From Hyphomicrobiales bacterium (GTDB taxonomy: Bacteria > Pseudomonadota > Alphaproteobacteria > Rhizobiales > Xanthobacteraceae), in assembly GCA_017304505.1 (NCBI GenBank), contig JAFKKQ010000325.1:1-13246 (forward strand): 13,246 nucleotides of DNA, written 5' to 3'. A program made the position numbers and the translations under genes. Numbering within the stretch: the first letter of the stretch is position 1; each line of letters begins with the position of its first letter. Shown one piece after another: positions 9,523 through 13,246 of this stretch. A model generated the notes under the pieces. That model saw nothing but the letters and a program-made list of their open reading frames with translations, did not search any database and had not been told where the DNA came from.

Positions 9523-10827
9523 ATGGACGACATCACCAAGCGCGAACCGCGCACCATCCGCGCTGAGGACGTCAATCCGCGCTACAACTGGGGCCGCCAC
9601 CTGCCGGCGCTCGGCACAATGGGCGTCGACTTCGAGGAGCGCGTCGACTACCGCCGCCTGCAACGCTACCGGCTGGCGCGCGCACAACAGGCATTAGAGG
9701 CATCCGATCTCGGCGCGCTCCTGGTGTTCGACGTCAACAACATCCGCTATCTCACCTCGACCAAGATCGGCGAATGGGAACGCGACAAGCTCTCGCGCTG
9801 GGCGCTGCTGCCGCGCGGCGGCGAGCCGATCCTGTGGGACTTCGGATCGGCGGCCGTCCACCACAAGCTCTATTCGCCGTGGCTCGACCCGGCCAATTGC
9901 AAGGCCGGCCTCGTCGGCCTGCGCGGCACCGTCGATCCGTCGTTCGGCCTGATGAAGCACCACGCCGAGGAGTTGGCCTCGATCCTGAAGTCGGCCGGCG
10001 TCGCCAACATGCCGCTCGGCGTCGACATCATCGAACCGCCGATGATGTTCGAGTTGGAGAAAGCCGGCCTCAAGGTGAAGGACGGCCAGCAGGTCATGCT
10101 GGAGGCGCGCGAGATCAAGTCGGCGGACGAGATTGCGCTGCTGAACCGCGCCGCCGCGATGGTGGATGGCGCCTATCATCTCATCCACGAGCAGCTCAAG
10201 CCGGGCGTGCGCGAAAACGACATCGTGGCCGAGGTCAACAAGTTCCTCTACACACACGGCTCCGACGATGTGGAAGCGATCAACGCCATTTCCGGCGAGC
10301 GATGTAACCCGCATCCGCACAACTTTACCGATCGGCTGATCCGTCCCGGCGATCAGGCGTTCTTCGATATCCTGCAGTCGTTCATGGGCTACCGCACCTG
10401 CTACTACCGCACCTTCAACGTCGGCCGTGCCACCGACTCACAGCGCGACGCTTACAAGCGGTGCCGCGAATGGCTCGACAAGGCGATCGAACTGATCAAG
10501 CCCGGCGTCTCCACCGACACGGTCGCCAGCGTCTGGCCGAAAGCCGAGGAATTCGGCTTCCCTGACGAGTTGTCCGCATTCGGGCTACAATTCGGCCACG
10601 GTCTCGGCCTAGCTTTGCACGAGCGGCCGATCATCAGCCGCGTGGTCTCGATGGATCATCCGACCATCATCAAGGAGGGCATGGTGTTCGCGCTTGAAAC
10701 CTATTGCCCGGCGAGCGACGGCTACTCCGCCGCCCGCATTGAGGAGGAGATCGTGGTGACCGACAAGGGTCACCGGATCATCTCGCTGTTCCCGGCCGAA
10801 GAGTTGCCGATTGCAGCGAGATACTGA
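9523..10827 (+). CDS. M24-fold (prolidase/creatinase/DddP-like) protein with an altered metal site
   Basis: This 434-aa protein has the two-domain pita-bread architecture of aminopeptidase P, prolidase, creatinase and the DMSP lyase DddP. The N-terminal domain (about 35-210) includes LGALLVFDVNNIRYLTSTKIG, split as FDVNNIRYLTS, a motif typical of the creatinase-type N-domain. The catalytic domain begins near MLEAREIKSADEIALLNRA. Metal ligands expected are Asp, Asp, His, Glu, Glu. D282 (FFDILQ), H359 (FGHGLGLALHE), E392 (FALET) and E407 (ARIEEE) are present, and the auxiliary H366 too. The second Asp, which should be 11 residues after the first, is C293 (GYRTCYYRTF). The reaction is therefore uncertain: a metal-free creatinase-like hydrolase, a mononuclear lyase or a peptidase are all possible. 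There is no signal peptide. It follows the GST gene by 242 nt and has its own -10. Confidence 0.9.
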   Translation: MDDITKREPRTIRAEDVNPRYNWGRHLPALGTMGVDFEERVDYRRLQRYRLARAQQALEASDLGALLVFDVNNIRYLTSTKIGEWERDKLSRWALLPRGGEPILWDFGSAAVHHKLYSPWLDPANCKAGLVGLRGTVDPSFGLMKHHAEELASILKSAGVANMPLGVDIIEPPMMFELEKAGLKVKDGQQVMLEAREIKSADEIALLNRAAAMVDGAYHLIHEQLKPGVRENDIVAEVNKFLYTHGSDDVEAINAISGERCNPHPHNFTDRLIRPGDQAFFDILQSFMGYRTCYYRTFNVGRATDSQRDAYKRCREWLDKAIELIKPGVSTDTVASVWPKAEEFGFPDELSAFGLQFGHGLGLALHERPIISRVVSMDHPTIIKEGMVFALETYCPASDGYSAARIEEEIVVTDKGHRIISLFPAEELPIAARY

Positions 10828-10932
10828 TCAGGTGGCGCACCACCCGCGCATCGCCGGAGCCTTTGCACGCCAGGGGCTGCCGATGCCGGGACATTCCGCA
10901 AAACTCGAAAACCCACGGGGCGAGGAATCCGC

Positions 10933-11259
10933 GTGAAAAATGTCCTGAACCTTCCGTCCCGGCCGCTGCTGTACGCGGCGGCCGCAATTCTGATGGCGTT
11001 GGTGGCGACGGGCGGCACAAAGCCCGCCGCCGCGCAATCGGCCGATGCAGCCGACCTCTGCACACCCGATGTCATGCGGCTGTGCAGCGAGTTTGTTCCC
11101 GATGCCGATCGCATCGTCGGCTGCCTGAAGGCCAAGCGTCGCCAATTGAGCCCCCGCTGCCTGGCCGCGCTGTCGCCCGGAAAATCGACGGCATCGAAAA
11201 AAGCGTCGTCGAAGTCCTCCAGGTCGTCCCACCGGGTGAAATCCAAGAGACATCAATAA
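10933..11259 (+). CDS. Small secreted four-cysteine protein with a basic tail
   Basis: This is a 108-aa protein of unknown function. The GTG start at 10933 follows GAGGA at 10922-10926. Residues 1-34 look like a signal peptide (hydrophobic 12-25, cut near AAA/Q). The mature part has C43, C51, C64 and C76 in the pattern LC-x7-C-x12-C-x11-C with I61-V62-G63-C64-L65 and L72-S73-P74-R75-C76. This resembles one cysteine-rich GLG1-type repeat (Pfam Cys_rich_FGFR), short periplasmic versions of which occur in rhizobia. Residues 79-108 are almost only S, K, R, A and H, a highly basic tail that may bind envelope polyanions or nucleic acid. The stop codon lies inside a 16-bp tandem repeat. A small hairpin (GGTGG-CGCA-CCACC, 10831-10844) lies between it and the M24 gene. 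Confidence 0.72.
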   Translation: MKNVLNLPSRPLLYAAAAILMALVATGGTKPAAAQSADAADLCTPDVMRLCSEFVPDADRIVGCLKAKRRQLSPRCLAALSPGKSTASKKASSKSSRSSHRVKSKRHQ

Positions 11260-11281
11260 CAAGAGACATCAATAACAAGAG
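11245..11281. repeat. 16-bp tandem duplication spanning the stop codon
   Basis: AAGAGACATCAATAAC occurs at 11245-11260 and again, identically, at 11261-11276, followed by the first five bases of a third copy. The TAA stop at 11257-11259 is in the first copy, so the duplication does not change the protein. Perfect identity suggests recent replication slippage. Confidence 0.85.
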
Positions 11282-11329
11282 CCGGGCCGTCCGCCGCCGG
11301 TAACGGCCTGGCGCGGGGCAACGCCCGCA

Positions 11330-11347
11330 CTGTCATGAATGTGTCAT
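11330..11347 (+). promoter_or_regulatory. Pho box (PhoB-binding site) upstream of the phytase-like gene
   Basis: CTGTCAT-GAAT-GTGTCAT consists of two 7-bp direct repeats with an 11-bp period, agreeing with the enterobacterial/rhizobial Pho box consensus (CTGTCATAWAWCTGTCAY) at 16 of 18 positions. It ends 10 bp before a CTATAG -10 element, the standard spacing at which PhoB replaces the -35 contact. The downstream gene encodes a secreted phytase-like protein, a fitting member of a phosphate-starvation regulon. Confidence 0.75.
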
Positions 11348-11357
11348 CGGGGCGAAC

Positions 11358-11363
11358 CTATAG
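11358..11363 (+). promoter_or_regulatory. -10 element of the phytase-like gene; nearly leaderless transcript
   Basis: CTATAG (or TATAGT one base later) sits 10 bp after the Pho box. Transcription should begin near 11370, only about 2-3 nt before the ATG at 11373. No Shine-Dalgarno sequence is present, consistent with leaderless translation. The element lies in the loop of a perfect 7-bp inverted repeat (CGGGGCG 11348-11354, CGCCCCG 11366-11372). Confidence 0.5.
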
Positions 11364-11372
11364 TCCGCCCCG

Positions 11373-12686
11373 ATGGACCCCCTCAGACTGATCCGTGGAC
11401 TGGTCGTTTCAGCCATCGCGCTCGGTGGAACAATTCACACCGCAACCGCGAACGCCGCCGATCTCTCCGTTCGCATCTATAGCGGCGACGATACCCTGCT
11501 CCGCATCGGCCCGGCTTTGTTCGAAGGCGGCAAAACGCTGAACCTCAGCGTCGGCATCGGCAGCAGCGCGTTCCGCCGGTCCGACGATCCACCAAACGTG
11601 TTGTGGACGCTCGGCGACCGCGGCCCCAACATCGCCTGCGGCGACATGAAGGCCACCACGGGTGTCGAACTCACCTGTCGCGACGTGAAGAACGGCCGCG
11701 TCTATCCCACGCCATCCTACGCACCCTCCATCTATCGCGTGATGCTGCTGGATGACGGCCGCTTCCGCGTCACTGACGTCATCACGCTGAAGGACCGCGA
11801 CGGCGTCCCGCTCAACGGCATGCCCAATCCGACACGCACGGCAACCACCGAGACGCCGCTCGACGGCGCCGGCAAGCGTCTGCAACAGGATCTCCGCGGC
11901 ATCGATGCCGAAGGCCTGGTACGGCTCGCGGATGGGTCGTTCTGGATCAGCGATGAGAACGCGCCTTCGATCGCGCACTTTTCAGCCGACGGCCAGCTGA
12001 TCGCTCGCCATGTTCCGGCCGGCACGGAAACGGAGTTCGCCGCCGCGCCCTACCAAACTCTCGGCAGCCTTCCGACGATCCTCGCCAAGCGTCAGGCCAA
12101 CCGCGGCATCGAGGGGCTCGCCATTTCTCCCGACGAGCGCTTCCTCTATTTCATTTTGCAGAACCCGCTCGCCAACCCCGACCAGGCTGCCTACGCGGCG
12201 GCACGCAACACGCGCCTGTTCAAGATCGAGCGCGCCTCGATGCGTGTCGTCGGCGAATATGTCTACACGCTCGACGATCCCCGGAGCTTCCGCCGCGATC
12301 CGTCACGCAAGCAGAGCGATCCGCGCATCAGCGAATTGATGGCCTTGGACGAAGATCGCCTGATCGTCCTGGAGCGCACCGAACGAACGACCAAGCTCTA
12401 CGAGATCGAGCTTGCGGGCGCGACGAACATCCTCGGCAGCCGCTGGGACGATGGCGCGACACGGCCGACCTTGGAGCAAAGCGAGTTGACGGCCATCGCC
12501 GTCATGCCCGTGACCAAGACGCTGCGCCTCGACACGGCCGACCACCCCGAGATCGCCGGCAAGACCGAGGGCATGGCGCTTCTCGGCGACGGCGCTCTCG
12601 CGCTCATCAACGACGACGATTTCGGCATTGGCGGCGAGCGCACGCAGATCGCGGTCGTCCGTGGCACCGTCATCGCGCGGAAATAA
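11373..12686 (+). CDS. Secreted esterase-like/phytase-family protein (Phytase-like, PF13449 type)
   Basis: This is an exported beta-propeller-like protein of 437 aa, in the usual range. Residues 1-28 form a signal peptide (R5, R8, then LVVSAIALGG, cut at ANA/AD). Family motifs appear in order: IGSSAFRR and LWTLGDRGPN near the N-terminus, IDAEGLVRLADGSFWISDEN in the middle, GIEGLAISPDERFLYFILQN, then ELMALDEDRLIVLERT, and TEGMALLGDGALALINDDDF near the end. Acidic clusters (DEN, NDDDF) are probable calcium or metal sites. The family is annotated as having esterase-like activity related to phytase, but biochemical proof is scant. The Pho box upstream favours a role in phosphate scavenging from organic phosphate. 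No ATG or SD-supported start exists downstream that would keep the signal peptide, so 11373 is firm despite lacking an SD. Confidence 0.9.
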   Translation: MDPLRLIRGLVVSAIALGGTIHTATANAADLSVRIYSGDDTLLRIGPALFEGGKTLNLSVGIGSSAFRRSDDPPNVLWTLGDRGPNIACGDMKATTGVELTCRDVKNGRVYPTPSYAPSIYRVMLLDDGRFRVTDVITLKDRDGVPLNGMPNPTRTATTETPLDGAGKRLQQDLRGIDAEGLVRLADGSFWISDENAPSIAHFSADGQLIARHVPAGTETEFAAAPYQTLGSLPTILAKRQANRGIEGLAISPDERFLYFILQNPLANPDQAAYAAARNTRLFKIERASMRVVGEYVYTLDDPRSFRRDPSRKQSDPRISELMALDEDRLIVLERTERTTKLYEIELAGATNILGSRWDDGATRPTLEQSELTAIAVMPVTKTLRLDTADHPEIAGKTEGMALLGDGALALINDDDFGIGGERTQIAVVRGTVIARK

Positions 12687-12688
12687 GC

Positions 12689-12703
12689 GCCGGGCAACCC
12701 GGC
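12689..12703 (-). terminator. Hairpin between convergent genes, candidate terminator
   Basis: GCCGGG (12689-12694) and CCCGGC (12698-12703) form a perfect 6-bp stem with a CAA loop. It lies 2 nt after the phytase-like stop and directly abuts the stop of the minus-strand gene. On the minus strand it is followed by GCTTATTTCC, moderately T-rich; on the plus strand no T run follows. It may serve both genes, with the minus direction better supported. Confidence 0.45.
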
Positions 12704-13246
12704 CTACTGGCACATCGCGCGGCTGATGAACGTGACCGTCTTGCAGGTGTCGCGCGATTCCTGACCGATCAGCGCCTTCACCGGGCATTCCTCGGCCGAG
12801 GTGAAATCCATGCTCTTGCCCGACGCATAGCCGTGCCTGCGGCACAGCGCCTGCGCCGCGCTCAGGCAATCGGGCGCGCCGTTGGGCGCGGCGGCGCAGC
12901 GTTCGCGTCCATCGATCATCCGCCCCGCCGGCAGCTTGGGCATCGCATCCGCCGCGTTCTTGCCGGCGGCAGCCGCCTTGTCGGTGAAATCCTTGCTATT
13001 GGAGGCGGCCTCGTCACCAATGCTGTCCATGCGCTGCTTGGCCCCACGCACGTGGTCGCGGATGTCCGTAAGACCCCGATCGACCCAGCGGCCGACAGCT
13101 TCGAACAGGCCAGGCTTGTGGCTGGCTCGCGGCAACGTCGGCGTGGCGGATCCCGGCGCGACCGGTTCCGACTGAGGCAGCGCCGATTGGGCCGGGGTCG
13201 ATTGAGCCGGGGTCGATTGAGCCGGTTCCGATTGAGTGGGCGCCCA
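12704..13246 (-). CDS. Six-cysteine protein with Pro/Gln/Ser repeat linker (5' part outside window), unknown function
   Basis: I do not recognise this gene. It stops at 12704 (TAG) and is open to the right edge, 180 codons visible, so the N-terminus and any signal peptide are outside. The visible part begins with a low-complexity linker of pentapeptide-like units (TQSEP, AQSTP, AQSTP, AQSAL, PQSEP). A helix-prone segment follows (LFEAVGRWVDRGLTDIRDHV, then AKQRMDSIGDEAASNSKDFTDKAAAAGKNAADAM). The C-terminal domain has six cysteines (RC, DC, LC, EC, TC, MC), probably three disulfides, which together with the linker suggests a periplasmic or surface location. A TTG at 13135 could start a shorter protein, but it has no clear SD and the upstream frame is plainly coding-like. 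It is convergent with the phytase-like gene. Confidence 0.75.
   Translation of the reverse strand, partial: WAPTQSEPAQSTPAQSTPAQSALPQSEPVAPGSATPTLPRASHKPGLFEAVGRWVDRGLTDIRDHVRGAKQRMDSIGDEAASNSKDFTDKAAAAGKNAADAMPKLPAGRMIDGRERCAAAPNGAPDCLSAAQALCRRHGYASGKSMDFTSAEECPVKALIGQESRDTCKTVTFISRAMCQ
13170..13244. repeat. 15-bp tandem repeat encoding the PQS linker
   Basis: Five imperfect 15-bp units start with GA[CT]TGA/GATTGG: 13170-13184, 13185-13199, 13200-13214, 13215-13229 and 13230-13244. Units two and three differ by one base (GATTGGGCCGGGGTC, GATTGAGCCGGGGTC). Each encodes five residues on the minus strand, so copy-number change keeps the frame. The array may continue past the edge. Confidence 0.8.

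Follow-up and report, generated by a model that had tools for sequence, protein, structure and literature searches.

A Pho box promoter predicted to drive a near-leaderless PF13449 (Phytase-like) gene in a Hyphomicrobiales bacterium

Proteins of the PF13449 (Phytase-like) family are widespread, and the family name "esterase-like activity of phytase" is barely informative on their function. One member, a protein of 437 amino acids (aa), is encoded at positions 11373..12686 (+ strand) of contig JAFKKQ010000325.1 from a Hyphomicrobiales bacterium (assembly GCA_017304505.1). The window analyzed here is this whole contig of 13,246 nucleotides (nt). The question raised by the locus is how a gene of so poorly known a family is controlled and what this control says about its product. 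A sequence-only reading of the window, made without database searches, had placed a PhoB binding site (Pho box) directly upstream of the gene and proposed that the gene is phosphate-regulated, that its mRNA is leaderless and that the real substrate of the protein is organic phosphate. We consider it highly probable that a PhoB-activated promoter gives rise here to a practically leaderless mRNA, which would encode an exported PF13449 protein that likely releases phosphate from organic phosphorus. Under phosphate starvation, phosphorylated PhoB would bind both half sites at 11330-11347 in place of a -35 element and would recruit sigma-70 polymerase to the -10 hexamer TATAGT at 11359-11364. Transcription would then begin at, or no more than about 2 nt from, the ATG at 11373, and the exported beta-propeller protein would most likely aid phosphate release from organic phosphorus outside the cytoplasm. 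If so, the PF13449 family would be tied to the Pho regulon.

The Pho box itself is clear. The segment CTGTCATGAATGTGTCAT at 11330-11347 (+ strand) matches 13 of the 14 defined bases of CTGTCATnnnnCTGTCAT and is composed of the half sites CTGTCAT (11330-11336) and GTGTCAT (11341-11347) separated by GAAT. These two 7-base pair (bp) direct repeats are alike at 6 of 7 bases and recur with an 11-bp period, as the sequence-only reading had described. The window contains one match of at least 12/14 on its two strands, as compared with a mean of 0.03 in first-order Markov simulations, and 13/14 was reached in 0/60 of these simulations. Throughout the draft genome (3.08 Mb in 550 contigs, 79% complete, with the window constituting one contig) the pattern TGTCAYn5TGTCAY occurs exactly at 3 places, the box at 11330-11347 included. 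With at most one mismatch it occurs at 26 places versus 3 for the backwards pattern. In the scoring of upstream regions of relatives, a reversed motif was a poor control (CTGTC is partly alike backwards, and 15 of at least 47 sequences still scored 10 with it). Profile searches additionally established that the draft genome encodes both PhoB (349 bits, above the curated cut-off) and PstS (392 bits). The pstS gene of this genome has its own box, CTGTCATCTAGCCGTCAT, that also matches at 13/14 and starts 248 nt ahead of the pstS ATG. Thus, the form of the box at 11330-11347 is the form used at the best-known Pho gene of the genome.

Conservation of the box was scored in orthologues as the best match over 250 bp of the DNA that precedes residue 30. 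From 114 loci, 90 contained a match to the protein (24 had none at E 1e-20), 85 of these had enough upstream sequence (5 had too little), 75 were nonredundant (10 were redundant) and 55, query included, were at least 41% identical. With the query excluded, a box of at least 10/14 is present in 36/54 orthologues and one of at least 9/14 in 49/54, while the 10/14 level was reached in 2/55 opposite-strand regions and 36/943 random windows from the same loci. This conservation is not random. Relatives below 41% identity, counted separately, have a box of at least 10/14 in 5/20 cases. Absence of the box from close relatives, which the sequence-only reading had named as a refuting result, was not observed, as 9 of the 10 nonredundant relatives that are at least 65% identical reach 10/14 and the tenth scores 9/14. 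Upstream regions of other open reading frames (ORFs) of at least 200 aa in the named loci reach 10/14 in only 2/190 cases, with these mechanically called ORFs being scored over the preceding 130 bp, which is shorter than the 250 bp used for the orthologues. Column counts anchored on the box show the two repeats and an A-rich spacer as prominent features. Box conservation, the presence of PhoB and the 13/14 box at pstS strongly support the proposed control of this PF13449 gene by PhoB, as far as sequence can indicate it.

The position of the -10 element determines what kind of mRNA this promoter would make. The hexamer CTATAG that had been proposed at 10 bp past the box does occur there (11358-11363); however, a better -10 is TATAGT at 11359-11364 (+ strand), with a spacer of 11 bp. 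Among 37 boxed orthologues (query included), spacer 11 is also the commonest for -10-like hexamers (6/37), a modest peak that fits a box replacing the -35 element. A scan of 10800-12900 found no sigma-70 consensus promoter, which likewise fits the Pho box serving as a -35 substitute. The -10 hexamer holds an in-frame stop codon (TAG, 11361-11363) and the next in-frame ATG, GTG or TTG past ATG 11373 is codon 49, well beyond the signal-like segment of the protein. Consequently, ATG 11373 is forced, and the translation start is fixed there, a rare start codon excepted. A protein that is 94% identical (P0001) has the same N-terminus, MDPLR. ATG 11373 stands 8 nt past the -10 hexamer, and transcription usually starts 7-9 nt from a -10 element. 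This spacing puts the predicted transcription start at 11371..11373 (+ strand) and the predicted leader at 0-2 nt. In agreement with the sequence-only reading, which had noted no Shine-Dalgarno sequence, the 20 nt ahead of this ATG contain no motif of that kind. The forced start codon and a -10 that ends 8 nt before it make a near-leaderless mRNA plausible in this genome. The arrangement resembles that of PhoB-dependent promoters in that the box would replace the -35 element with TATAGT about 10-11 bp downstream, which we take to be the layout of the Escherichia coli phoA promoter as well, and it is unlike them in that the start codon follows the -10 so closely as to be practically leaderless. 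The CTGTCAT-type 7-bp repeats with their 11-bp period are also like those of E. coli pstS and phoA and of Sinorhizobium Pho boxes, which are described in a passage of PMC4415409 as two 11-nt direct repeat units.

The sequence-only reading had further anticipated the same distance between box and ATG in orthologues, and in this regard it did not hold. The distance from the start of the box to the ATG is 43 nt here versus 56-84 nt in 32/36 boxed relatives and at least 60 nt in 34/36, so that the chosen ATG is at least 17 nt farther downstream than that of the query in 34/36. In many boxed relatives the leader is predicted to be about 20 nt long, and a loose Shine-Dalgarno-like motif precedes the ATG in 24/37 boxed sequences with the query among the 13 without one, counts in which the choice of ATG in relatives favors ATGs with such a motif. 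Extra in-frame ATGs occur at 46, 50 and 40 nt from the start of the box in three relatives (L058, L060 and L099, respectively). Since the distance is longer in relatives, near-leaderlessness looks like a local trait, and the claim of a leaderless mRNA is retained as plausible for this genome only. Transcripts of this kind are common in Bradyrhizobium japonicum, where the reported gene transcription starts include 320 at 0-10 nt upstream of the start codon, 192 of these being exactly at it (PMC4842269). Near-leaderlessness is ordinary for this relative, with the difference that leaderlessness here is a prediction from one promoter.

The -10 element is additionally bracketed by an inverted repeat with two perfectly matched 10-bp arms, CATCGGGGCG (11345-11354) and CGCCCCGATG (11366-11375), that includes the start codon (11345..11375, + strand). 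A repeat of at least 10 bp was obtained in 0/2000 mononucleotide shuffles of a 49-bp segment around it, and the inverted repeats of the 36 boxed relatives reach 8 bp at the most. In an RNA that begins farther upstream the AUG is wholly paired in the centroid structure, or paired at two of its three bases in the minimum-energy fold (z score -3.0, with 1/200 shuffles as good), whereas in the leaderless RNA the AUG is open in the centroid and two of its bases are weakly paired in the minimum-energy fold (z 0.94). A hairpin that hides the AUG was rejected as a feature of the family, as the repeats of relatives are at most 8 bp and three that were folded gave z scores of -0.65, 0.85 and 0.15. The first of these values is that of L058, in which the region of the downstream ATG is paired in a strong yet unremarkable fold. 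The repeat at 11345-11375 was spotted post hoc in one genome and may have arisen by chance. The Pho promoter and the start codon could form a two-part lock in this lineage, in which the repeat hides the AUG in any longer read-through RNA and only the leaderless transcript started by PhoB exposes it. We regard such a lock as improbable; were it real, translation as well as transcription would be limited to phosphate starvation.

The assignment of the product to PF13449, made by the sequence-only reading, was confirmed by a profile search (160.6 bits versus a curated cut-off of 27.6). The protein has a signal-like N-terminus and would be exported, and its nearest named relatives are from Xanthobacteraceae and Rhodoplanes. 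The nearest other gene for which DNA is available is 74% identical (7 of 11 genomes of the genus and 18 of 299 relatives contain a match, with this genome included in both counts). A structural model predicts a beta-propeller fold. Among the matches listed, the nearest solved folds are YjiK and glutaminyl cyclases, with NHL domains, lactonases and SMP30 scoring lower. Pfam searches up to E 10 returned only PF13449 and a sub-threshold match to the SdiA-regulated (YjiK-type) family (15.9 bits, cut-off 21), and thus gave no match to the beta-propeller phytase family, which we take to be PF02333. PhoX and beta-propeller phytases are not among the 50 structural matches listed, which excludes neither. 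The protein would be like the alkaline phosphatases PhoX and Psip1 in being a beta-propeller with a role in phosphate starvation, as these are portrayed in a passage of PMC11098088, and it is unlike PhoX in that Pfam families of the PhoX type are not matched anywhere in its 437 aa at E values up to 10. Organic phosphate as the substrate is consistent with this evidence and is a reasonable inference.

Published accounts of PF13449-type genes bear on this proposal. For example, the Nodularia gene nsp7010, labeled as an "atypical alkaline phosphatase (esterase-like activity of phytase family protein)", belongs to the genes that PMC9846622 reports as induced when phosphate is limiting, so the phosphate link of the family label is not wholly new. 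That gene shares with ours the label and the link to phosphate limitation, but it is cyanobacterial, the main text of the paper does not contain the term "Pho box", and the likeness is one of label. A gene with a PF13449-type label also appears next to phoB and phoR in a table for Pseudomonas asiatica, and the accompanying passage is silent on its control (PMC9777792). The PhoB regulon of Caulobacter includes "a phytase" whose family is not named in the accompanying text (PMC11208175), and which could be a precedent. Our literature search, which lacked most subscription journals and in which most matches were judged superficially, found no recognizable published demonstration of PhoB control of the PF13449 family in Proteobacteria.

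Several observations weigh against the favored reading of a PhoB-activated, essentially leaderless gene for a phosphate-releasing protein. A box of at least 10/14 is absent in 18/54 orthologues and one of at least 9/14 in 5/54, as might be expected if the box were a chance match and the gene lay outside of the Pho regulon; a section of PMC4415409 also describes confirmed Pho boxes at genes without obvious phosphate regulation. Such a coincidence is very improbable in view of the conservation counts and their controls, the specificity for strand and position, and the same kind of box at pstS. The leader is a separate matter. The spacer-11 peak comprises only 6/37 sequences (others are 3 at 41, 2 at 8, 2 at 22 and singles at seven spacers), and the short distance from box to ATG is not conserved in boxed relatives. 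PhoB could thus control a gene that has a normal leader, with transcription starting also or mainly farther upstream, or reading through from an upstream 108-aa ORF, and with the leaderless transcript being minor or absent. This ORF (10933-11259, + strand) ends 113 nt upstream of ATG 11373 on the same strand, the scan of 10800-12900 found no + strand terminator, and many boxed relatives have the longer predicted leader and Shine-Dalgarno-like motif noted above. However, ATG 11373 has no such motif and no other usual start before codon 49 to replace it, no consensus sigma-70 promoter was found upstream, and most of the AUG would be engaged in the strong hairpin described above if the RNA were longer. 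We therefore hold a normal leader to be rather unlikely in this genome.

It is also conceivable that the gene is phosphate-regulated and that its product acts on something other than organic phosphate, for example as a lactonase-like, binding or surface protein in envelope remodeling during starvation. Pho regulons hold non-hydrolases too, and both the nearest solved folds and the sub-threshold SdiA-regulated match are in keeping with such a role. Additional points against a phosphate-releasing enzyme under PhoB are that PDB sequence searches gave no usable relative (none up to E 1 in one, and three matches with a best E of 0.73 in the other), that no enzyme assay of this PF13449 subfamily was found in the literature searched, and that a passage of PMC5082522 on three Pseudomonas strains reports no evidence of PhoBR control of known or predicted phytases, the families of which are unstated there. 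The Pho box is nonetheless common to many PF13449 relatives, which points to a phosphate-scavenging role, and we view a substrate other than organic phosphate as possible, if on balance unlikely.

The association extends to more distant PF13449 genes, for which the 130 bp before a start chosen by a crude signal-peptide rule were scored. A box of at least 10/14 is present in 12/21 members of a family sample (L036-L056, with the matched part 26-35% identical; none on the minus strand), 13/28 of a phylum sample (minus strand 3), 6/16 distant named loci (minus strand 1) and 0/6 of a small class-level set (minus strand 0), while control windows of these sets reach this level in 0.8-2.7% of cases. 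The sets overlap partly with the orthologues and with each other (e.g., L139, L141/L153, L143/L154, L148 and L150), two loci had too little upstream sequence (L108, L155) and two gave no score (L120, L140). The boxed loci of the distant set are those of Snodgrassella, Moraxella, Spirabiliibacterium and Pelistega, a record labeled Streptomyces, and a single locus from Chlorobiota (10/14). No box of at least 10/14 is present at the loci of this set from Bacteroidota, Verrucomicrobia and Gemmatimonadota. The organisms with boxes span Alpha-, Beta- and Gammaproteobacteria, as we assign their classes. A Pho box upstream of so many PF13449 genes makes a phosphate-scavenging role testable and can guide the choice of members for assay. 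The record titled Streptomyces cinereus (L102) has a gene and upstream region that look proteobacterial (a lipoprotein-like start and a Pho box of 11/14), and is probably mislabeled or, possibly, contaminated. The PF13449 relatives of one class-level family (L142-L144) have neither a Pho box (7-9/14) nor an evident signal peptide, and are perhaps a cytoplasmic branch with a different role.

The neighborhood of the gene was also inspected. Its downstream neighbor is a convergent ORF on the minus strand (12704-13135), and the upstream 108-aa ORF has a signal-like start and no Pfam or NCBIfam match. The notion that the box is simply part of a phosphate operon was set aside as unsupported, as there is no phosphate-specific family among the neighboring ORFs. 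Pfam searches of 10 such ORFs from 7 loci matched 5, namely an M24 peptidase, SecA, RlmN, an MFS protein, and a tetrapyrrole methylase with ChuX/HutX, with false ORFs possibly among the 5 that were unmatched. An M24 gene lies upstream in the window and is retained in one of the 7 loci (L060). Finally, a 16-bp unit, caagagacatcaataa, is tandemly doubled at 11244-11275, where the 108-aa ORF ends, with the result that the stop codon of this ORF is duplicated.
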